Position numbers and translations under genes: made by a program | Notes under the pieces: generated by a model | What the model was told of the DNA's origin: nothing | What the model saw: the letters and a program-made list of their open reading frames with translations, nothing else | Database searches by the model: none | NCBI GenBank assembly: GCA_947381415.1 | Contig: CANCVB010000005.1 | Coordinates: 1-64,000, forward strand | Source of the DNA: Burkholderiales bacterium | Lineage (GTDB): Bacteria; Pseudomonadota; Gammaproteobacteria; Burkholderiales; Burkholderiaceae_C | Direction of reading: 5' to 3' | Length of the DNA stretch: 64,000 nucleotides | Shown: positions 4,805-23,961 of the stretch, piece by piece | How the letters are laid out: the number at the start of each line of letters is the position of its first letter | Numbering within the stretch: position 1 is the first letter of the stretch

Positions 4805-6610
4805 ATGCACACTCACCACACCCTTGCCGCCATCGAACACCTCAACGCTGCCAGCCCAAGCGAGGCTGTGCAATGGTTGAATGGCATCTACGAGCACTCG
4901 CCTTGGGTGGGCGAACGAGCCCTTCAGCTTCGCCCTTTTCGCAGTCTGGCGCATGTCAAGTGGGTATTGGCACAAGCGGTTGACCAAGCCCCGCAGGAGC
5001 TTCAACTGGCCTTGGTCCGCGCCCACCCTGTGTTGGCACCCCAAGCTGCACCCGACTTGACCGCAGAGTCTCACCAAGAGCAACACAGCGCTGGCCTGTG
5101 GCAATGCACACCTGAACAAGCCAAGCGCTTGCGAGAACTGAACGCCGCTTACCAGCAACACTTTGGCTGGCCCTTCATCATTGCCGTGAAAGGACCGCGC
5201 GGCAATGGCCTTGGGCCCCAAGCCATTGTGGACAGCCTCGAGCGGCGCTTGTTAGCCTCTCCTGCGAATGAATTTCAAGAATGTTTGCGCCAAATACACC
5301 GTATCGCCGAGCTTCGCCTGAACGACAAATGCGGCACCCAACCCACGCTGGGTCAAGAGCTATGGGACTGGCATGAATGGCTGGCCCAGTTCAGCGATGC
5401 TGGCTTTGCCGAGCGTGGCGAACTGAGTGTGAGCTACCTCACGCCTGCGCACCGCGCTTGCGCGCAGACATTGCTGCTGGGCATGCAGGCCTGTGGGTTT
5501 GATGAGGTACACATGGATGCCGTGGGCAATGTGGTGGGTCGCTACCACCCAGCGCAAGCCGATGCACCCTATGTGCTGACGGGCAGCCACTACGACACCG
5601 TGCGCAACGGTGGCAAATACGATGGGCGTTTGGGGATTTTCGTGCCCATGGCCTGTGTGCGTGAGCTGGCCCGCGCTAAAAAGCGCTTGCCCATCGGTAT
5701 TGAGGTGGTGGCATTTGCTGAAGAAGAAGGCGTGCGCTACAAAGCCACTTTTTTGGCTTCGTCTGCGTTGACTGGGCATTTTCAAAGTGCATGGCTAGAC
5801 CAAACCGACGCCGAGGGCATCAGCATGCGCCAAGCCATGCAAGCCGCGGGCTTAGACCCGCGCCAGATTCCAGCCCTTGCACGCGATGCCGCGCACTACA
5901 TCGGGTTTGTGGAAGTGCACATAGAACAGGGGCCGGTATTGCACCAGCGCAATACGCCGCTGGGCATCGTCACCTCGATCAACGGCAGCCGCCGCTACCT
6001 GGGTGACATCACAGGCACCGCCAGCCATGCAGGCACCACGCCCATGGGACAGCGCCAAGATGCCGCGGCCGCCTTGGCCGAATGGTCGGTCTACCTTGAA
6101 CAGCGCGCCACCCTCGATGGTGACTCGGTTGCCACCATTGGCATGCTGCATGTGCCCGATGGCTCCATCAATGTGGTGCCAGGGCGCTGTCATTTCAGCT
6201 TGGATATGCGTGCACCCACCGATGCCCAGCGTGATGCGCTGGCTGACGATGTCTTGCAAGCGCTTGAACGCATTTGCAAGCAACGTGGCCTGCGCCACAG
6301 CCTCGAGGAAACCGTGCGCGCGCCAGCCGCCCCCAGCGACCCCGGCTTGCAGAAGGCCTGGGAACAGGCGGTTGCTTCCTTGGGTATTCCCTTACACCAC
6401 TTGCCAAGCGGTGCGGGACATGACGCCATGCAATTGCACCGCCTGATGCCGCAAGCCATGTTGTTTGTGCGCGGCGAAAACCAAGGCATCAGCCATAACC
6501 CGCTTGAATGCACCACGGCTGACGATATGCAGTTGGCGCTGCAAGCTTTTACCTATTTTGTTAAAAATTTGTTAACAACAAAACACCAAATGGGTACAAA
6601 CCCTGCATAG
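4805..6610 (+). CDS. Fusion protein: OHCU decarboxylase (UraD) + allantoate amidohydrolase (M20 family)
   Basis: One uninterrupted 601-residue frame contains two enzymes. Residues of about 5-165 are a UraD-type OHCU decarboxylase, with RPFRSLAHVKW (43-53), RAHPVLAPQ (72-80; the family usually has HPDLAG) and the signature LNAAYQQHFGWPFIIAVKG (112-130). Residues of about 178-595 are an allantoate amidohydrolase/carbamoylase of the M20 metallopeptidase fold: GSHYDTVRNGGKYDGRLG (260-277) with metal-ligand candidates H262 and D273, AEEEG (305-309), and EVHIEQGPVLH further on. Together they would perform OHCU to allantoin, and allantoate to ureidoglycolate with ammonia release. The intervening allantoinase step is not encoded here. 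Each half has near full family length, so it reads as a true fusion, not a read-through of two genes. Confidence 0.9.
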   Translation: MHTHHTLAAIEHLNAASPSEAVQWLNGIYEHSPWVGERALQLRPFRSLAHVKWVLAQAVDQAPQELQLALVRAHPVLAPQAAPDLTAESHQEQHSAGLWQCTPEQAKRLRELNAAYQQHFGWPFIIAVKGPRGNGLGPQAIVDSLERRLLASPANEFQECLRQIHRIAELRLNDKCGTQPTLGQELWDWHEWLAQFSDAGFAERGELSVSYLTPAHRACAQTLLLGMQACGFDEVHMDAVGNVVGRYHPAQADAPYVLTGSHYDTVRNGGKYDGRLGIFVPMACVRELARAKKRLPIGIEVVAFAEEEGVRYKATFLASSALTGHFQSAWLDQTDAEGISMRQAMQAAGLDPRQIPALARDAAHYIGFVEVHIEQGPVLHQRNTPLGIVTSINGSRRYLGDITGTASHAGTTPMGQRQDAAAALAEWSVYLEQRATLDGDSVATIGMLHVPDGSINVVPGRCHFSLDMRAPTDAQRDALADDVLQALERICKQRGLRHSLEETVRAPAAPSDPGLQKAWEQAVASLGIPLHHLPSGAGHDAMQLHRLMPQAMLFVRGENQGISHNPLECTTADDMQLALQAFTYFVKNLLTTKHQMGTNPA

Positions 6611-6733
6611 ATCAATATTGCCAGATAATTCAGTTTTTATATAGATTCATTAAATTCGGTAATTTTGCGAATATCATGCGTGGCAATTTCGTCCGCATGA
6701 ATGCGGGTTCTTTTACTGCACAGGTCTTTGCCC
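6611..6733 (+). promoter_or_regulatory. AT-rich intergenic segment upstream of the channel operon
   Basis: These 123 bases are far more AT-rich than the surrounding genes, especially 6618-6672, and are the obvious place for the promoter of the 6734-13201 gene string. Near 6654-6672 is a small interrupted inverted repeat, ATTCG then CGAAT separated by nine bases, which could be an operator. No clear -35/-10 pair, sigma-54 element or known box could be assigned. Direct observation is limited to base composition and the inverted repeat. Confidence 0.35.
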
Positions 6734-7375
6734 ATGGCTATTCATCCATCAAGTCGAACTTCATCGCGCGGATTTACCTTCCAAGATTTTATTTTTGTGA
6801 TTTTGGTGCTTTTCGCCCTGGTCGCCGTGACTTATCTTGGCAACGAGGCTTATTTAGACGCCATGAAAACAGAGATGACCAAGAAAAATGGAGAAGAACT
6901 GGCTTCATGGCTGACTGAATCTGGCACCTTGCGCTTTAAAAAGGACTACGCAGTGAACGCGTGTGCAGGTGGCAAACCCGTGGCAGCCCCTGTCAAAACA
7001 GACGCTTCAACAGCGACCCCCGCTGAAGGGGAGGCTGTTGAAAAAGTGGAAGAAGCGGCTGCGCCAGAGCAGCCTCTGGCAGGCACTTGGGGTGCTTGCT
7101 TCGCCTACCTGATGAATGAAGGCGAGTTCAAAGCCATGATTAACCCTTTCACCAATGAACCACCCCAGTTCGTTGCGGCATGTAACCCTGCCGACCACAC
7201 GCTGGCCGGCCAAATCGTCTTAGAAAAGTTGACAGCCACCCCACCAGGTTCGGCGGTTCCCATCATCAACTCTCAATTGGTTGACACCGATCCCATAGAC
7301 CAAAAATTGCAATTGCGGCTATCGGTCTGTGACAAGGGCGCCTATGCCATCAAGATTGCCGAATTCGAATACTGA
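6734..7375 (+). CDS. Single-pass secreted/membrane protein with type IV prepilin-like N-terminus
   Basis: The family is not recognised. From the ATG at 6734 the product is 213 residues. It begins with a short polar, basic leader ending in Gly-13, followed by FTFQDFIFVILVLFALVAV. This resembles a type IV prepilin or pseudopilin cleavage site (G then F, with Asp at +5 where Glu is usual) and a hydrophobic N-terminal helix. An amphipathic, charged helix follows, then an Ala/Pro/Glu-rich linker (about 80-110) and a C-terminal part. There are four cysteines (in NACAGG, WGACFAY, VAACNP and LSVCDK) that could form two disulfides. An in-frame ATG at 6701 would add 11 residues. It ends 8 bases before the channel gene at 7384, implying co-expression. 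It may instead be a simple signal-anchored protein. Confidence 0.6.
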   Translation: MAIHPSSRTSSRGFTFQDFIFVILVLFALVAVTYLGNEAYLDAMKTEMTKKNGEELASWLTESGTLRFKKDYAVNACAGGKPVAAPVKTDASTATPAEGEAVEKVEEAAAPEQPLAGTWGACFAYLMNEGEFKAMINPFTNEPPQFVAACNPADHTLAGQIVLEKLTATPPGSAVPIINSQLVDTDPIDQKLQLRLSVCDKGAYAIKIAEFEY

Positions 7376-7383
7376 GGTTAGCC

Positions 7384-9027
7384 ATGGAAAACACTGAAAA
7401 AACACCTCTTCGCATCATTGACTTAGACGCCAAAACCCTGATGGGTGATGATGTTGAGGCCAATATTTCATCCGATTTGCCCTTGCGCCAATGGATGTAC
7501 GCTTGGTTGCTAGACCCCCACATTCCTGGCAATTACCAAAAAAATATCGATAAATGGATTGGCTTGCTCATTGTGGGCAACCTGTTTTCATTGGTATTCG
7601 AGCATGTGCCAGCCATCTATGAACCTTATAAACAATGGTTCCATTTGTTCGATCTTTTCTCAATCACTGTTTTTGTGATTGAGTATGCCCTGCGCTTGTA
7701 CCTTGCCCCTGAAGATGCTGAATTCAATCAACGCAAACTGCCCCGCTTGGCCTATGTGTTCAGCCCGTTTGCCATCATCGACTTCTTGGCTGTTGCGCCG
7801 TTTTTCTTTCAAGCGTTTATCCCCGTCGATCTGCGTGCACTGCGATTCTTGCGTTTGTTGCGAATCCTGAAACTGTTTCGCATCGTCATTCCTGCTTTCA
7901 AAGAATTTGGCGACTTAAACCAAGGCCGTACCTTCCGTCAAAAAATCCATGCATTGGTTTTTCCCAGCCCTTACGGCGGCACCATGCAATCGATCTTTGA
8001 CTCATTCATTGGTTTATGGGTTTTGATCTCCGTTTTAGCGGTTGTGCTGGAGTCTGTGCAATCCATCAGCTATGTTATCAATATTGAGTTTGTGATCTTG
8101 GACGCGGTGGCGGTGGGCATTTTCACCGTCGAATACATGATGCGTATCTATGCCTGTGTTGAAGAACCGGGATATAAAAACGCGATCGCGGGTCGCTTCA
8201 AGCAAGCCAGCACGCCAGCCACCATCATCGACTTGCTGGCGATCTTGCCCTTCTTCTTAGAGGTCTTCATGACCCACGTGTTTGATTTGCGGTTCTTGCG
8301 GGTGTTCCGTTTGGCACGTTTACTCAAACTCACGCGTCAAAGCGATGCCACAGCCATTTTGGGCAAAGTGTTGGTGCGTGAGTGGCCGGTCATGAGTGCC
8401 TCTGCTTTCATCATGCTGCTGTTGGTGGTCTTGACCGCCAGTTTGGGGTATTTGTTTGAGCATGAAGCGCAACCCGACAAGTTTGAAAACATTCCCACAG
8501 CCATTTATTGGGCTGTGATTACCTTGGCCTCGGTGGGCTATGGCGACATCTCTCCAGTCACCCCTATTGGCCGAACCATGACCATCGTGTTGGCCTTGAT
8601 TGGTATTGGTATTTTTGCCATCCCTGCTGCATTGTTGTCATCGGCTTTCAGTGACCAGTTGGTCAAGGAACGTGACGCATTGAAAGCCAATCTGTTTCAC
8701 ATGATCAAGGATGGTCACCTCTCTGAGGTTGAAATTGCGCAAATCCGTGCCGAAGCCAAACGACTTCACCTCACCATTGAAGAAATCAATGCGTTGCTAG
8801 AACAGATTCAAAAAGAGCAAGAAGAAGAAAACTACAAGCGGGCCAGCCTGCCGGTACACATGATTGCCGAAAGTCCCGACCATGCAGTGGAACACTACAA
8901 AACATTGCTTTCTCAAATCAAACAACTGGCGTTGATGACAGACGGTGAAAAATTTGAACATGCCGCCAAATCCTCGGACAGTCTCACCGCCAAAGAGTTG
9001 GCTTTGTGGCAACAAATCAAAGCTTGA
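7384..9027 (+). CDS. Voltage-gated potassium-type channel with two tandem voltage-sensor domains and one pore
   Basis: 547 residues; ATG at 7384 preceded by GAGGTTA. The first voltage sensor has S1 at about 56-74, S2 at 86-107, S3 at 127-146 and a charged S4 (LRALRFLRLLRILKLFR, 150-166). No pore follows it. A second sensor has S1 at about 203-223, S2 at 233-256, S3 at 277-297 and S4 (LRFLRVFRLARLLKLTR, 302-318). Then come S5 at about 337-358, a pore helix and the canonical potassium filter TLASVGYGD at 380-388, and S6 at about 397-422. A charged cytoplasmic C-terminus contains a DG-led helical module (about 441-476). Ordinary bacterial Kv channels have one sensor per subunit, so the VSD-VSD-pore order is unusual. 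It is predicted to be a tetrameric inner-membrane cation channel; voltage dependence is untested. Confidence 0.88.
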   Translation: MENTEKTPLRIIDLDAKTLMGDDVEANISSDLPLRQWMYAWLLDPHIPGNYQKNIDKWIGLLIVGNLFSLVFEHVPAIYEPYKQWFHLFDLFSITVFVIEYALRLYLAPEDAEFNQRKLPRLAYVFSPFAIIDFLAVAPFFFQAFIPVDLRALRFLRLLRILKLFRIVIPAFKEFGDLNQGRTFRQKIHALVFPSPYGGTMQSIFDSFIGLWVLISVLAVVLESVQSISYVINIEFVILDAVAVGIFTVEYMMRIYACVEEPGYKNAIAGRFKQASTPATIIDLLAILPFFLEVFMTHVFDLRFLRVFRLARLLKLTRQSDATAILGKVLVREWPVMSASAFIMLLLVVLTASLGYLFEHEAQPDKFENIPTAIYWAVITLASVGYGDISPVTPIGRTMTIVLALIGIGIFAIPAALLSSAFSDQLVKERDALKANLFHMIKDGHLSEVEIAQIRAEAKRLHLTIEEINALLEQIQKEQEEENYKRASLPVHMIAESPDHAVEHYKTLLSQIKQLALMTDGEKFEHAAKSSDSLTAKELALWQQIKA

Positions 9028-9117
9028 TTTTTTTAGAGCAAGTTCCTTCGACCGCTTATGTTTGACGGTTATGTGTGGGGGACTTGCTCGCCCCTTTTAC
9101 TTTTTTAGCGTCGCGCA
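9028..9117 (+). promoter_or_regulatory. Intergenic segment with long-range inverted repeat between channel genes
   Basis: GAGCAAGT at 9036-9043 is matched by ACTTGCTC at 9082-9089, followed by a T-rich stretch (about 9094-9106). The 38-base loop contains a shorter ACCG/CGGT pairing. It could be an attenuator or a weak terminator that sets the level of the following channel genes. There is no good Shine-Dalgarno before the ATG at 9118. Confidence 0.35.
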
Positions 9118-10014
9118 ATGTTTGATAAACAAAAAACCACTTTGATGGAGATTCTGGAAGGGTCTCCCAACCAGCCCCTGTCAAAGTACGCAGAGTGGTT
9201 GATTTCTACTGTCGTGTTGGTGAATTGTTCTGCTGTGATTTTGGACTCAGTGCCTGAAGTGCATGCAGAGTACAAGGAATTCTTTCATGAGCTGGAGTTT
9301 TGGAGCGTGATGTTTTTCACGGCCGAATACCTGATGCGGGTTTGGTCCTTGGGTGCCAAATACCTAGAGAGCGGCTGGAAAGGTCGGCGCGAGTACATGT
9401 TCAGTGCCTTTGGTTTAGTAGACTTCTTTGCCACCATGCCTTACTACTTGCATGTGTTTTTACCCACACTTGATTTGCGCATATTGCGTGTCTTGCGTTT
9501 GCTGCGCATTTTGAAATTATCCAAATACAACTCTGCCCTGCAAGATTTGTTTTCGGCGGTGTACTCTGAGAGACGGGCGTTTGGCTCAGCGGCTTTTTTG
9601 CTCACCATCGCCACCATTGTCTCGGCCTCTTTGATGCACTTCGCCGAGGGCCACGCACAACCCGAACAATTTGGCACCATCCCTCACGCCATTTACTGGT
9701 CCATCGTGACTATCACTTCAGGTTATGGCAACGTCGAGCCGGTCACCAAGGGCGGAGAAGTCGTTGCCTTACTGACCGGTTTTTTGGGCGTGTGTATGGC
9801 CGCCATCATGACCGGTATCGTGGCCTCCGCGTTTGCCAACCAACTGTCTCGCAAAAAATCTGCTTACCAAGCGCAACTGCGGCAAGTGTTGGCTGACGGT
9901 GTCGTCTCAGACGCAGAAAAAGATGCACTTAAGCGTTTGCAAATGCAATTTCGCTTAAGCGATAAAGAAGTTCAAACCATGATGGAACAAGCCCAAGCAG
10001 GGAAGACACCATGA
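9118..10014 (+). CDS. Voltage-sensor cation channel with altered selectivity filter (TSGYGN)
   Basis: 298 residues in the six-helix ion-channel fold: S1 about 25-43, S2 about 60-77, S3 about 96-116, and charged S4 LRILRVLRLLRILKLSK (120-136). S5 is about 155-175, the pore region about 186-206, and S6 about 214-241. At the position of the potassium filter TVGYGD the sequence reads TSGYGN (200-205). The valine is replaced by Ser and the terminal Asp by Asn, so ion selectivity may differ from a standard K+ channel. The short C-terminus (about 258-293, LADGVVSDAE...) matches the module in its neighbours. The next gene starts inside the stop codon (ATGA at 10011), implying translational coupling and possible hetero-oligomers with that paralogue. 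The start is uncertain: an ATG at 9145 is possible. Confidence 0.85.
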   Translation: MFDKQKTTLMEILEGSPNQPLSKYAEWLISTVVLVNCSAVILDSVPEVHAEYKEFFHELEFWSVMFFTAEYLMRVWSLGAKYLESGWKGRREYMFSAFGLVDFFATMPYYLHVFLPTLDLRILRVLRLLRILKLSKYNSALQDLFSAVYSERRAFGSAAFLLTIATIVSASLMHFAEGHAQPEQFGTIPHAIYWSIVTITSGYGNVEPVTKGGEVVALLTGFLGVCMAAIMTGIVASAFANQLSRKKSAYQAQLRQVLADGVVSDAEKDALKRLQMQFRLSDKEVQTMMEQAQAGKTP

Positions 10015-10946
10015 GCAATGTCCTCGAACTCTCTGCCTATCGCCGTGTCAAGCATCGCGTCTTCAGCGTTCTTGAAGGCGACGTCTCAGACCCAGCCAGC
10101 CGGTTTTGCGAGATTTTCATCGCGCTGCTGGTCATCTTGAATGTGCTGGCCATCATTTTGGAATCCGTGCCCGATATACACGAGGCTTTCGGAGAGTATT
10201 TCCATTATTTCGATCTTTTCAGTGTGGGCGTTTTTTCCATTGAATATGTGCTGCGCGTATGGTCTTACAGTGAAAAATACACTGACGCAGACGACAGTCC
10301 ATGGAAAGGTCGCAAGGAATACGTGTTCAGCTTCTTTGGTCTGGTGGACTTTTTCAGCACGGTGCCCTTTTACCTGCAACTGCTGATGCCAGGTACCGAT
10401 TTACGTGTCCTGCGAATGTTTCGTTTGTTGCGGATTTTCAAACTCTCGCGCTACAACAGCGCCATGGACGACATGTTTGAAGCCATCAAGGCTGAAAAAG
10501 ACTCTTTCTCTTCCGCTTTGTTTTTGTTGTTCATCAGTGGCCTTTTATTCTCTTCACTGATATACATCATCGAAGGACACGATCAACCTGAAATATTCCC
10601 CTCCATACCCGCTGCCATGCATTGGTTTATCTTGACCATCATTTCGGGTTGGGGCAATGTGGACCCGGTCACTTTCCCCGGTGTGATTTTGGTCATCATC
10701 ACCCAAATTTTGGCGATCGCACTCGCCGCCATCTTGACCGGTGTGGTATCCACCGCTTACACCACCCAAGTGGCACGCCGTGAAGCTTTGTACGAAATGG
10801 AAATTCGCGAAGTGCTGGCTGATGGTATCGTCACTGAAGAAGAAGAGATCAAACTGAAAAACATGCAAGCCAAATACGGCATGTCAGACGAACAGGTCGA
10901 AGCGATTGCCGCACAAGTTCGTGCAGAAAAGAATATGCCGCATTAA
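10011..10946 (+). CDS. Voltage-sensor cation channel paralogue with altered selectivity filter (SGWGN)
   Basis: 311 residues, clearly paralogous to the upstream protein: compare ILESVPDIHEAFGEYFHYF with ILDSVPEVHAEYKEFFHEL. S1 is about 32-51, S2 about 64-85, S3 about 105-126, S4 LRVLRMFRLLRIFKLSR (131-147), S5 about 166-187, pore about 197-218 and S6 about 222-249. The filter reads TIISGWGN (209-216): relative to TVGYGD, the Thr is Ile, Val is Ser, Tyr is Trp and Asp is Asn. Such a filter departs from all classical K+ channels; it may conduct poorly, select other ions or be a regulatory subunit. The C-terminal helical module (269-304, LADGIVTEEE...) is shared with the two preceding channels. 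Translation is coupled to the upstream gene by a 4-base overlap. Confidence 0.85.
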   Translation: MSNVLELSAYRRVKHRVFSVLEGDVSDPASRFCEIFIALLVILNVLAIILESVPDIHEAFGEYFHYFDLFSVGVFSIEYVLRVWSYSEKYTDADDSPWKGRKEYVFSFFGLVDFFSTVPFYLQLLMPGTDLRVLRMFRLLRIFKLSRYNSAMDDMFEAIKAEKDSFSSALFLLFISGLLFSSLIYIIEGHDQPEIFPSIPAAMHWFILTIISGWGNVDPVTFPGVILVIITQILAIALAAILTGVVSTAYTTQVARREALYEMEIREVLADGIVTEEEEIKLKNMQAKYGMSDEQVEAIAAQVRAEKNMPH

Positions 10947-10979
10947 TCCTGTCCCATTCACTTTCAACCGGAGACAATC

Positions 10980-12365
10980 ATGCAAGACATGGGCACCACC
11001 TTGGTGATTTGGGCCGCCATATTGGGCGCGATTGCAGCAGGTTCAATGGTGCTGGGTGCCATTGTGGGTATCACCACCCCGATGTCCAACGCCACCGTTG
11101 GCGCGATGTGTGGCTTTGGTGCGGGTGCCTTGATTTCTGCGCTTTCTATTGAACTGGTGTCACCGACCGTGGAAGCGCTGGCCCATGCAGACATCGCACA
11201 CCGTGTTGAAGAGACGCACCACTTCGTCACATTGCTGATTGCACTGATTGGTGGCGGACTGATTTTCATCACCCTTGACCAATTGCTCAGTGCCCATGGT
11301 GGTTATTTGCGCAAGGGCGCATACGTGATTGCCCAGCATGCGCGCAACAAGTCCAAACGCCAAGCCGACTTGATGCAATCGATTGGAAATTCATCTTTTT
11401 TCAGCAGCATGTCACCAGACATGATGCACGATTTGGTCAAACTGCTGCAACCCAAGTTTTTGGTGGAGGATGAGCATCTGTTTTCCGTGGGAGATGCTTC
11501 CTCTGAGTTGTATATCGTTCGCGCTGGGTCTATCACCTTGACGCATGCGGATGGCAGCAGCCATACCGTGGAGCGGGGTGACTTGTTGGGTGAGGTTTCT
11601 TTCTTGGCGCACCAAGCGCACAGTACCACCGCTGTTGCCGAGCATGGTCCCGCCGAGTTGCTGGTGCTGCACAAGTCACAGTACGAGGTTTTTTCGCGCA
11701 GCCACCCCGAATTTGCCGCCTCTGTGCGCGAGTTGGCCGCACAACGTATTTTGGAAAACAAACGCCATGTTGACCAAGCCGCTGTAGCCAAGCAAGCTTG
11801 GGCCAATCTGGCCATTGACGCCATTCGAACAGGTGGCAGCGAAGTGCCAACAGCTGCCGAATTGAACACCATGAAAGAGGAACACAACAACGCAGGCATG
11901 GCCATTTGGTTAGGCAACTTGCTTGACGTGATTCCAGAAAGTTTTGTGATTGGCACGGTGATGCTGTCTATCGTTGCCTCCAAAACAGCCACAGGCATGA
12001 CACTGAGCTTTTGGGATGTGATGCCATTGACACTGGTGGGTGCCTTGTTTTTATCCAACTTCCCCGAGGCTTTGTCTGCCAGCGTGAACATGAAAAGCCA
12101 AGGGTTTTCTACGGGAAAAATCATTTTCCTGTGGTCTGTGTTGACCGTGATTTGTGCAGTCGGTGCCGCCTTTGGCGCCTATGTGGGTGAATCTATTCCG
12201 CATTCAGCCATGATTGTGGTTGAAGGCATCGCAGCAGGTGCCATGCTGACCATGATTGGCTCAGCCATGTTGCCCGAGGCCGCGCATTTGGCCTCGCCAA
12301 ACATGGCTGGCTTTTCTACCTTGGTCGGTTTTGTGGCCGCTGTAGGATTCAAGCTTTTTGAATAA
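10980..12365 (+). CDS. ZIP-like membrane permease with inserted cyclic-nucleotide-binding-type domain
   Basis: 461 residues; ATG at 10980 after ACCGGAGACAATC. Three N-terminal membrane helices (about 7-30, 40-62, 82-104) are followed by a soluble domain (about 139-260) with the CRP/cNMP-binding beta-roll pattern: LFSVGDASSELYIVRAGSIT, then GDLLGEVSFLAHQAHSTTAV. In the phosphate-binding cassette, Glu-205 is kept but the usual Arg is absent (HSTTAV). C-terminal helices carry WLGNLLDVIPESFVIG (310-325) and LSNFPEALSAS (358-368). These resemble the metal-site helices 4 and 5 of ZIP transporters, with Asn, Asp and Glu in place of some His, and are followed by GIAAGAMLTMIGSAMLPEA. Probably a ligand-gated divalent-metal permease; metal, direction and ligand are unknown. 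Co-directional with the channels and 5 bases before ureD, so a nickel role is conceivable. Confidence 0.72.
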   Translation: MQDMGTTLVIWAAILGAIAAGSMVLGAIVGITTPMSNATVGAMCGFGAGALISALSIELVSPTVEALAHADIAHRVEETHHFVTLLIALIGGGLIFITLDQLLSAHGGYLRKGAYVIAQHARNKSKRQADLMQSIGNSSFFSSMSPDMMHDLVKLLQPKFLVEDEHLFSVGDASSELYIVRAGSITLTHADGSSHTVERGDLLGEVSFLAHQAHSTTAVAEHGPAELLVLHKSQYEVFSRSHPEFAASVRELAAQRILENKRHVDQAAVAKQAWANLAIDAIRTGGSEVPTAAELNTMKEEHNNAGMAIWLGNLLDVIPESFVIGTVMLSIVASKTATGMTLSFWDVMPLTLVGALFLSNFPEALSASVNMKSQGFSTGKIIFLWSVLTVICAVGAAFGAYVGESIPHSAMIVVEGIAAGAMLTMIGSAMLPEAAHLASPNMAGFSTLVGFVAAVGFKLFE

Positions 12366-12370
12366 AGCCC

Positions 12371-13201
12371 ATGGGTTGGCAAGCCACACTGCAGATTGAT
12401 TACAGCGTAGAAGAAGGTCATTGTGTGGCGCGTCATGTGCACAATGGTCCTTTGCGCATACTGAAAAGCCTCTATCCCGAAGGCGAACAGGTGTGTCACA
12501 ACATCTTGGTACATCCACCCAGTGGTTTGGTGGGCGGTGATTGCTTGAACATTCAGTTGCACCTTCATGACCATGCCCACGCCTTGTTAACCACCCCTGG
12601 GGCCACACGTTTTTACCATTCAGAGGCTTTGACTGCTTCGCAATACATCCATGCCACGCTGGGTCATGGCGCCCGTTTGGAATGGTTACCGCTTGAAGCA
12701 CTGGCCTACAGCGGTTGCCATGCGCACAACCAAGTGACTTTCAACTTGGCCATAGACAGCCAACTCATGGCATGGGATGTCACTGCTTTGGGCTTGCCGC
12801 ATGCCCAGCAGCCATTCACGCAAGGTCAATTTCAGCAGCATTTGGAAATAGAGGGCATGTGGCTAGAACGCGGCTTGATCCGTGCCACAGATCAGCGTTT
12901 GCTACACAGTCCCTTGGGCCTTAACGGCCACAACTGCCAAGGCACCTTGGTATTTGCGCAAGGTCAAGCCATGTTGGATACGCAGTTGCAACAGGTCATT
13001 GCAATGGCGCGCGACGTGTGTGATCAACATGGACTGCAGTTACAAGCGGGCGTTACCTCGCCCGACCCCAGACTGGTGGTGGTTCGGGTACTGTCTGCGC
13101 AAGTGGAGCAGGCAATGGATTTGTTGCGCCGCATTTGGCTCACGTGGCGCGCAGAGATATGGCAATTACCGGCTGTCGCGCCGCGTATATGGGCCATGTA
13201 A
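12371..13201 (+). CDS. ureD: Urease accessory protein UreD
   Basis: The 276-residue product shows UreD hallmarks: GPLRILKSLYPEG (about 26-38), HPPSGLVGGDCLNI (about 48-61), TTPGATRFYHS (about 73-83) and LEWLPLEALAYSGC (about 104-117). UreD acts with UreF and UreG as the scaffold and nickel channel that loads the urease active site. It begins 5 bases after the ZIP-like gene and so is probably co-transcribed with the channel operon, not with ureABCEFG, which lies over 10 kb away on the same strand. In many Burkholderiales ureD directly precedes ureA, so this placement is unusual. It ends 4 bases before the convergent aquaporin gene. Confidence 0.93.
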   Translation: MGWQATLQIDYSVEEGHCVARHVHNGPLRILKSLYPEGEQVCHNILVHPPSGLVGGDCLNIQLHLHDHAHALLTTPGATRFYHSEALTASQYIHATLGHGARLEWLPLEALAYSGCHAHNQVTFNLAIDSQLMAWDVTALGLPHAQQPFTQGQFQQHLEIEGMWLERGLIRATDQRLLHSPLGLNGHNCQGTLVFAQGQAMLDTQLQQVIAMARDVCDQHGLQLQAGVTSPDPRLVVVRVLSAQVEQAMDLLRRIWLTWRAEIWQLPAVAPRIWAM

Positions 13202-13205
13202 AACA

Positions 13206-13865
13206 TCAATGCATGGCGTCTTTGTCAGAGCCAAGCCAGCTGTCCAATAAAACGCCCACACTGGCACCGACCAACTCGGCCAGCATGAACGCGGGCGCAT
13301 CCCAAGGACTGATGCCTGCGAAGGTATTGCTCATCATGCGACCAAACACTGCCGCAGGGTTGGCAAACGAGGTACTGGCGGTAAACCAATAGGCCGCGCC
13401 AATGTAGCAAGCCACCATCGCCGAGGCTTTGCCAACAGGTGCACGCAAAATCACAAACAGCAAACCTGCCGTGGCCACGGCTTCGGCCAAGCATTGGCCA
13501 TAGCCACTCCTGACTTTGCTTGCGTATTGAAACACCTCTAAATCGAACATGGCATGGGCCAACCACACACCCATGGCGGCACCCGTCAATTGCGCAAGCA
13601 TGTAAAAAACCACTTGATTGCGCGGTAAATCACGACGGTAAGCCATGACCAAAGAAACAGCAGGGTTGAAATGCGCGCCGCTGACAGGGCCCAAAGCCTC
13701 GATCAAGACATAAAGTGCGAACACGGTTGCCAAGGTATTGGCCAGTAGCGCCACAGCCATGTTGCCTGCGGCCAAATTCTCGGCCATCACGCCTGAACCC
13801 ACCACCGCGCACAACAATGCCGCTGTACCGATACCTTCAGCCAGGTAGCGACGCCACGCTGTCAT
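13206..13865 (-). CDS. Aquaporin/aquaglyceroporin family protein (AqpS-like)
   Basis: The 219-residue membrane protein has both MIP half-helix signatures: GAHFNPAVS (about 63-71) and SFANPAAVFGR (about 166-176), plus six hydrophobic segments. The ATG at 13865 overlaps the arsC stop by 4 bases. In Sinorhizobium meliloti and others, arsC next to an aquaglyceroporin forms an arsenate detoxification route in which ArsC makes arsenite and the channel lets it leave. Since this protein is encoded directly after arsC, that is the most likely job. Urea or glycerol passage is an alternative, given the nearby urea genes. Family assignment is firm, substrate inferred from context. Confidence 0.88.
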   Translation of the reverse strand: MTAWRRYLAEGIGTAALLCAVVGSGVMAENLAAGNMAVALLANTLATVFALYVLIEALGPVSGAHFNPAVSLVMAYRRDLPRNQVVFYMLAQLTGAAMGVWLAHAMFDLEVFQYASKVRSGYGQCLAEAVATAGLLFVILRAPVGKASAMVACYIGAAYWFTASTSFANPAAVFGRMMSNTFAGISPWDAPAFMLAELVGASVGVLLDSWLGSDKDAMH

Positions 13866-23635: not shown

Positions 23636-23961
23636 GCACGCGATTCATTCCTGGGGAACTCTTCACCGACGCCGGCCACCACGAACTCAACACTGGCAGG
23701 CGCACCCACACCTTGGTGGTGAAAAACAGCGGTGACCGCCCTATCCAAGTGGGCTCGCATTACCACTTTGCCGAAACCAACACAGGCTTGTTGTTTGACC
23801 GTCACGCCGCGCGCGGCATGCGCTTGAACATTGCCTCGGGGACAGCGGTGAGGTTTGAGCCTGGCCAAGAGCGCACGGTAGAGTTGGTCGACTATGCCGG
23901 CACACGCGAGGTCTATGGTTTTCGCGGTGATGTGCAAGGCGCTTTGAAAGGGGGCGCATGA
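23632..23961 (+). CDS. ureB: Urease subunit beta
   Basis: From the ATG at 23632 the product is 109 residues, with [40 protein letters not shown]-type beta structure, including [15 protein letters not shown], and the conserved [15 protein letters not shown], ending in [12 protein letters not shown]. These are standard UreB signatures and length. A longer in-frame start at 23584 would lie within the preceding small gene. The stop overlaps the ureC start. It forms the (UreA-UreB-UreC)3 core with its neighbours. Confidence 0.97.

Follow-up and report, generated by a model that had tools for sequence, protein, structure and literature searches.

Analysis of a 64,000-nucleotide stretch of DNA from a Burkholderiales bacterium (assembly GCA_947381415.1, contig CANCVB010000005.1, positions 1 to 64,000 of the forward strand; hereinafter, the window), which is part of a 2.51 Mb genome in 40 contigs, revealed a row of five membrane protein genes, denoted here P1 to P5 in the order of the genes and followed by ureD, in which P1-P4 is a conserved core in freshwater Burkholderiales. 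This core is part of the voltage-gated channel superfamily and shows two departures from it, namely a pair of channel subunits (P3 and P4) whose selectivity filter is one residue short and a K+-type channel (P2) with tandem voltage sensors. The explanation that we favor, and to which we give about an even chance based on sequence comparison, is that P3 and P4 assemble into a heteromer, a voltage-gated cation channel with lowered K+ selectivity, that acts beside the K+ channel P2 and its partner P1.

The relatives of the cluster were sampled by scanning named genomes for P4 with short peptide patterns, a procedure that reaches close relatives, and the best 80 of 99 loci were analyzed, so that all 80 contain P4 by construction; 77 of these records are labeled as metagenome-assembled genomes. 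The main labels are Comamonadaceae, Limnohabitans, Comamonas, Burkholderiales and Betaproteobacteria, with a few Oxalobacteraceae, Polynucleobacter, Noviherbaspirillum, Sulfuritalea and Rhodoferax; the genus of the window takes in Limnohabitans sp. Jir61 (NZ_NESD01000001.1; locus L064, with the P4 match at 460849-461754). The set is also present in L038, which is labeled Rickettsia typhi and encodes a P4 that is 90% identical to that of the window, and in L108, labeled Alphaproteobacteria; these two labels may be wrong. P3 is located directly upstream of P4 in 68 of the 80 loci, and the complete order P1-P2-P3-P4 is found in 53. Among the 27 loci that lack the full order, 18 end at a contig boundary, L108 and L113 contain split open reading frames (ORFs), and L041 was missed by the gene caller in the order count, although the ORF listing shows all four genes; the true departures are L092, L097, L102, L105, L109 and L112. 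The median gaps, computed with mechanically chosen starts for P3, P4 and the other genes, are 8 bases for P1-P2 (n=53), 82.5 for P2-P3 (n=60) and -4 for P3-P4 (n=68). The four-gene order and the gaps are retained where P4 is 71-93% identical to that of the window, and the P3-P4 neighborhood is retained down to 67%. Given that the order recurs in dozens of genomes, this gene neighborhood exceeds what is expected by chance.

The defining feature of P3 and P4 is the length of the selectivity filter. The distance from the pore-helix Trp to the first Gly of the filter is 9 residues in 70 of 70 P3 and 80 of 80 P4 sequences (counts that include the window and leave out the cut P4 of L114), and 10 residues in all 60 P2 sequences. 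The original prediction had spoken of two channels with altered filters; this is borne out and, moreover, both share one identical one-residue deletion. In HMMER alignments to Kv1.2 and Kv2.1 (for P3) and to Kv1.3 (for P4), a one-residue gap falls at the filter; the nearest solved chains are Kv1.2 and Kv2.1, then Kv1.3 and KCNQ, for P3, and Kv1.3 and Kv1.2 for P4. The P3 filters mostly read TITSGYGN (followed by VEP in 39 and by IEP in 8), with rarer variants that carry A for S, F, W or N for Y, or H for the filter N, and the P4 filter conforms to TI[IV][SA]GWGN in 80 of 80 sequences; the residue before the first filter Gly is variable (S, A, T or G). A P3 homolog with the filter TITSGWGN, that is, with the P4-type Trp in a P3 gene, was observed in L192 (8128-9042, minus strand; the same place as L085). 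Neither P3 nor P4 has a full-length TxGYG(D) filter, and both possess the regularly spaced S4 arginines of a voltage sensor: S4 is DLRILRVLRLLRILKLSK-like in the 70 P3 rows, one of which has Trp in place of Arg, and DLRVLRMFRLLRIFKLSR-like in the 80 P4 rows.

In a tree of 34 channels (from 9 of the 80 loci, the window, the genomes G500 and G556, and outgroups, with a tool warning on long branches among the outgroups), the 24 rows with a short filter all group in a single clade (100/99), to which the full-length channel of L158 is sister (94/86), and the other TVGYGD channels fall outside. This clade splits into 12 GYGN-like (96/90) and 12 GWGN (100/100) rows, and both subclades hold rows of the same loci, including G500 and G556, which belong to another family; outside the clade, the closest relatives that were read are GYGD or GFGD channels with a filter of full length. 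The simplest account of this topology is one deletion, one duplication and joint retention. Among 349 genomes sampled from the order, 53 match P3 at E ≤ 1e-25, and in the 30 loci read (23 genomes with weaker matches, as well as second matches in some genomes, fell outside this reading), the short filter is present in the genome of the window, G500 and G556, and the filter is full length in 27. At E ≤ 1e-32, matches were obtained in 34 of 321 genomes sampled from the class and in 40 of 349 sampled from the phylum, and none of the 21 new loci read has the short filter, all being full length; beyond Pseudomonadota, the short filter was sought only by the close-relative scan and one plasmid search. 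Judging from these loci, and with the two doubtful labels mentioned above set aside, the short filter is confined, within this sample, to Burkholderiales.

A hand count by score and identity in 84 same-genus genomes found a P4 ortholog in 56 (partial in G201) and a P3 ortholog in 54, both in 53 and neither in 27. Thus, 53 of the 57 genomes with either gene have both, and the exceptions are P4 without P3 in G153, G156 and G224 (completeness 64, 59 and 80) and P3 without P4 in G221 (69). From this retention as a pair, we infer a P3+P4 heteromer.

The VSD-VSD-pore layout (VSD, voltage-sensor domain) originally proposed for P2 is upheld by two Ion_trans stretches and by an internal duplication that relates VSD1 to VSD2 (32% identity over 133 columns, E 2e-21), so that P2 departs from the arrangement of one sensor per pore. 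The filter is S[VI]GYGD in 60 of 60 sequences, in accord with the TxGYGD signature, and the S4 charges are retained in both sensors, with VSD1 reading DLHVLK in 4 of the 60. By these features, P2 is a channel of the K+ type in which a single pore is preceded by two voltage sensors. A phylum search with P2 (299 genomes, E ≤ 1e-50) yielded matches in 13 other genomes, all of which align only from residue 177-205 on, that is, over one sensor. Genes with two sensors were encountered in the genus, among the 80 loci and in G442 (L161), and frame length points to their presence in G566. Two double-sensor genes adjoin each other in two genus members (L193 and L194), and others have a second one near the cluster. 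Relatives of the double-sensor channel, approximately 400 amino acids long, that seemingly comprise the second sensor and pore alone were noticed in L195 (5216-6412), L163 (8541-9734) and L164 (943-2148), all on the minus strand.

The P1 protein of the window has no match in Pfam or NCBIfam, and the family yields only chance-level matches to Pfam and PDB. In an alignment of 39 rows, four Cys are retained in 38-39, and an Asp directly precedes the membrane helix in 36. The AlphaFold model (mean predicted local distance difference test score, pLDDT, 88.5) shows a helix at 16-66 and then a small β domain, for which no trustworthy structural relative was detected, with weak hints of archaellin. 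Type IV prepilins are recognized by the class III cleavage motif with Gly at -1, a hydrophobic residue at +1 and Glu at 5. The prepilin-like character originally ascribed to P1 does not hold for the family: GFTFQD is found in 2 of 57 P1 sequences, those of the window and L037 (L084 is short of the site), and in the alignment, position 5 is Asp in 36 rows and Gly-1 is present in 15, so that the identification of P1 as a type IV prepilin fails the motif test. In G442, the gene with two sensors follows a P1-like gene (L161:9392-9916) that shows 16% identity and has all four Cys but gives no phmmer match; this, together with the gap of 8 bases between P1 and P2, suggests that P1 is a putative accessory subunit of P2.

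The ORF list confirmed the places of the six plus-strand genes (Table 1), with P1 starting within an ORF listed from 6701, and the gaps of 8, 90, -4, 33 and 5 bases between them agree with those originally given. Pfam search of the window identified Ion_trans in P2, P3 and P4, cNMP_binding in P5 and UreD in P6.

Table 1. Features of the channel gene cluster, in coordinates of the window
Feature	Coordinates	Strand	Description
P1	6734..7375	+	Single-pass membrane protein with a small periplasmic domain containing four conserved Cys; putative accessory subunit
P2	7384..9027	+	K+-type channel subunit, VSD-VSD-pore, filter SVGYGD; Ion_trans twice and Ion_trans_2
P2-P3 gap	9028..9117	+	Terminator- or attenuator-like long hairpin with a T-rich tail; the window's own copy is marginal
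P3	9118..10014	+	Kv-like subunit with six transmembrane segments (6-TM), filter TITSGYGN one residue short; Ion_trans 104 bits
P4	10011..10946	+	Kv-like 6-TM subunit, filter TIISGWGN one residue short; Ion_trans 91 bits; 4-base overlap with P3
P5	10980..12365	+	ZIP-like membrane protein with a cyclic-nucleotide-binding-type domain inserted at approximately residues 121-288; optional neighbor
P6 (ureD)	12371..13201	+	Urease accessory protein; PF01774 153.9 bits (cut-off 27); frequent neighbor

The stretch upstream of P1 (6611-6733) is indeed AT-rich, as originally noted (62.6% compared to 44.5% in the window), but its promoter-like character is not supported, the match at 6618-6647 being at the shuffle level (2 matches in 6300-13400 compared to the shuffle mean of 6.1). 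Transcription of the first five genes as one unit, also part of the original prediction, is doubtful in light of terminator-like hairpins in the P2-P3 gap. In the window, this gap folds into a hairpin of -26.3 kcal/mol (z -2.1), and the median z is likewise -2.1 over 62 such regions, some of which run into P3. Terminator-like hairpins wholly inside the gap were identified in 16 of 62 loci (16 of the 53 with gaps of at least 40 bases), compared to a mean of 1.65 and a maximum of 5 of 62 in 20 dinucleotide shuffles; in an earlier, wider hairpin count, the control regions gave 0 of 61 within P2 coding sequence and 4 of 80 downstream of P4. The hairpins of L046, L101 and L104 are textbook terminator-like ones. 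By the same rule, the gap contains no hairpin in 46 of the 62 loci, the match of the window itself is marginal, and the tool's own scan of the window gave no more than chance. P1-P2 and P3-P4, the latter with P5 and ureD where present, may be two units or one attenuated unit.

We propose that the core would be a module for membrane potential and cation handling. Within it, P2 would be a voltage-gated K+ channel with an extra voltage sensor per subunit and P1 a small accessory protein, bitopic and with a periplasmic domain rich in Cys, and the sister subunits P3 and P4 would most likely come together 2+2 as a single voltage-gated cation channel. Lacking one residue relative to the TVGYG(D) line, the P3/P4 filter probably holds three ion sites or fewer; work on NaK indicates that fewer filter ion sites go with lost K+ selectivity (PMC8553846; PMC9822992). 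Because a filter with fewer ion sites is probable, P3/P4 would be expected to conduct cations, namely Na+ and K+ and perhaps also NH4+ or Ca2+, with a far weaker preference for K+. Depolarization would open both channels, causing a cation leak or influx via P3/P4 and, as the balance, K+ efflux via P2, so that P3/P4 and P2 (with P1) together would establish or restore the membrane potential or the balance of cations in dilute water.

Several observations weigh against this proposal. The independent scattering of homologs in relatives, which the original prediction named as counterevidence, is absent for the core in most loci but does occur in L094, L097, L105, L111 and L112, where the genes are dispersed: in L105, P1, P2, P3 and P4 lie inside 7 kb with an extra gene that separates P3 from P4, and in the other four loci, a more distant double-sensor gene (whole or cut) adjoins P4, followed by TerC. 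In L092 (the same place as L122), P3-P4 occurs without adjacent P1-P2, with another double-VSD gene about 6 kb away. The P2-P3 hairpin may separate P1-P2 from P3-P4, and the pairing and overlap of P3 and P4 would be compatible with co-expression without co-assembly. Finally, the filter of hERG is SVGFGN, and Asn for Asp alone does not abolish K+ selectivity.

This last point bears on the possibility that P3/P4 are still K+-selective, with the backbone of the shortened loop building enough K+ sites, in other words, that the filter has drifted in an otherwise ordinary voltage-gated K+ channel. We consider this unlikely, even though the GYG/GWG triplet is retained, the Pfam and PDB neighbors are Kv channels and the nearest relatives read outside the clade are of the full-length type, because all 150 sequences lack the residue, the letter that precedes the first Gly varies, and two different versions have persisted side by side, a pattern hardly expected from drift alone. 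It is more doubtful still that P3/P4 conduct no ions and serve as voltage-sensing subunits, either modifying P2 or signaling without ion current. The altered filter signature with an intact S4, the linkage to the conducting-type P2, and a C-terminal helical stretch that is similar in P2, P3 and P4 (by eye, from the alignment) would fit such a role; no TerB domain is assigned at the C-terminus of P3, where the Pfam score of 16.8 bits is under the cut-off of 24.4. However, the pair occurs without adjacent P2 at L092/L122 (one place), L156 and L157, and the filter letters seem too conserved for a dead pore.

Comparison with known channel types helps to place our preferred reading of P3/P4 as a poorly selective cation channel. 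P3 and P4 share with the Kv1/Kv2/KCNQ-type K+ channels the 6-TM layout, the S4 arginines, the pore helix and the GYG/GWG core, but differ in the filter, which is one residue short and has Asn in place of Asp, whereas P2 differs in having two sensors per pore; the NCBIfam model K_channel_Meth scores 60.4 bits for P2, 41.3 for P3 and 17.8 for P4, far below the cut-off of 300. As in the non-selective NaK and cyclic-nucleotide-gated (CNG) channels, the P3/P4 filter departs from TVGYGD and fewer ion sites are expected, and the Asn after the last Gly recurs in the TVGDGN filter given for NaK (PMC9822992); in contrast to these channels, P3/P4 have other filter letters, a deletion before the first Gly and fully charged voltage sensors, and, unlike in CNG channels, Pfam search reveals no cyclic-nucleotide-binding domain (cNBD) on the channel proteins P2-P4. 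The BacNav channels (NaChBac/NavAb type) are likewise bacterial voltage-gated cation channels, with one representative in the same genome and similar genes in several related clusters, but the TLESW-type filter by which they are characterized is absent from P2-P4. The original prediction held that this is not a known system, and in agreement, literature searches gave no description of the channel gene set, nor of the short-filter pair or the tandem-sensor channel.

The genomic setting of the cluster varies. In L092/L122, L156 and L157, the genes upstream of P3-P4 encode a DUF1538 protein, two PII-like proteins (one confirmed by Pfam in L122, the other recognized by likeness to its neighbors) and a protein of 243-244 amino acids that has no Pfam match, and a ClC gene is located downstream. 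L156 (3620-10450) and L157 come from two genomes of 1.5-1.7 Mb that belong to another family and contain this row from DUF1538 to ClC. The DUF1538 proteins UmpAB are described as a Na+(Li+,K+)/H+ antiporter (PMC5484666), a different protein class; their family adjoins P3-P4 in these other lineages, but no DUF1538 gene is present among the window genes examined. Other clusters include genes for Na+-channel-like proteins, CitMHS (NhaD-like by eye), a Na+/H+ exchanger, TerC, DUF4337 and more K+-type channels. The genome of the window itself encodes, away from the cluster, a BacNav-type channel (L117:8823-9635, contig C9) with the filter TLEGWS, whose closest matches among solved chains are bacterial 'ion transport proteins', including an entry named NavAb. 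A further K+-type channel of this genome (L118:8215-9249, minus strand, contig C21) has the filter TTTGYGD and a long insert before the pore, and genes like it occur within the channel clusters of L061, L064 and L076. Judging by gene content, this neighborhood suggests monovalent-ion and voltage control more than metal uptake.

P5 and ureD, which the original prediction counted among the members of the set, are optional neighbors: P5 is found directly behind P4 in just 14 of the 80 loci, and ureD is one of the next four genes downstream in 36 (immediately after P4 in 21, after P5 in 10 and further away in 5). A physical ion/metal complex including P5 is unsupported. The cNMP_binding domain of P5 is confidently identified (42.6 bits, cut-off 27.5; the nearest solved match is SthK). 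In contrast, the Pfam Zip score is 21.0 bits, under the cut-off of 35.1 (24.3 and 26.9 bits for insert-free homologs), and a Zip search of the genome of the window reported other genes but not P5. The metal-binding His residues in the fourth and fifth transmembrane segments of ZIP transporters lie in HNxPEG-type motifs, and these His are absent from P5, which reads GNLLDVIPES and [S/A]NFPEA in 11 of 11 sequences; therefore, P5 is described here as ZIP-like and not as a ZIP transporter. The structure model of P5 has a low pLDDT of 37.4, and the P5 profile matches the genome's own ZIP with a probability of 10.5%. Insert-free homologs of approximately 304 amino acids were detected in five same-genus genomes (residues 8-120 and 289-461 of the query aligned; two were read), and the fused form in 15 of 84, with some copies cut or split and a fragment in G230 that stops short of the insert. 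ZIP-like proteins of 304 amino acids without the cNBD insert are encoded near a TerC-like gene (by eye) in L190 (4724-5638) and L191 (4420-5334). Broken-looking P5 genes, perhaps resulting from decay or assembly error, were seen in L039 (6832-8216) and L041 (4442-5148), with a split frame and, in G167, a stop inside. In the window, ureD is more than 10 kb away from the other urease genes (by eye, ureC at 23958 and ureE, ureF and ureG up to 27635) and only 5 bases behind P5, so that it may be read from the channel unit; its function is probably separate from that of the channel core.

The proximity of ureD also raises the possibility that the unit serves nitrogen handling, with P3/P4 passing NH4+ from urease. 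PII-like genes shortly upstream of P3 in L092, L156, L157 and (by eye) L112 can be counted in its favor, as can the passage of methylated and ethylated ammonium ions described for CNG channels (PMC6091977). Given that no ureD match was seen in the 20.9-kb stretches of L064, L067, L072 and L081, and that in L156 and L157 the PII-like genes follow a gene of the DUF1538 antiporter family with no urease gene seen, we regard this explanation as improbable. Finally, that the genes adjoin by chance in one lineage, with no common process, is highly improbable despite the dispersal in loci labeled Oxalobacteraceae and Polynucleobacter, considering the retention of gene order and gaps over the P4 identity ranges given above and the P1-like gene that precedes the double-sensor gene in G442, a member of another family.

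On the reading that we favor, P3/P4 as a cation channel of reduced K+ selectivity beside P2 and P1, a bolder extension is conceivable, although we hold it to be rather unlikely: a freshwater Burkholderiales excitability module in which a heteromeric voltage-gated cation channel with a natural, deletion-derived three-site filter, a tandem-sensor K+ channel with a β-like periplasmic subunit, and a BacNav channel (linked or encoded elsewhere) would produce and end depolarizations. The TVGYG filter is among the best conserved ion-channel motifs and, if the proposed function is correct, the P3/P4 pore would exemplify a further way, in addition to those of NaK and CNG, in which nature has turned a K+ filter into a non-selective one. 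The number of ion sites needed for K+ selectivity has been studied with NaK and engineered variants, as described in PMC8553846 and PMC9822992. Here, a natural one-residue deletion has been fixed, duplicated into two partner genes and retained beside normal K+-type channels that are usable as controls, so that the site-number question becomes testable in natural proteins. The tandem-sensor channel raises the question of the role of an extra voltage sensor, and the cluster as a whole provides a handle on why freshwater bacteria retain several voltage-gated channels.

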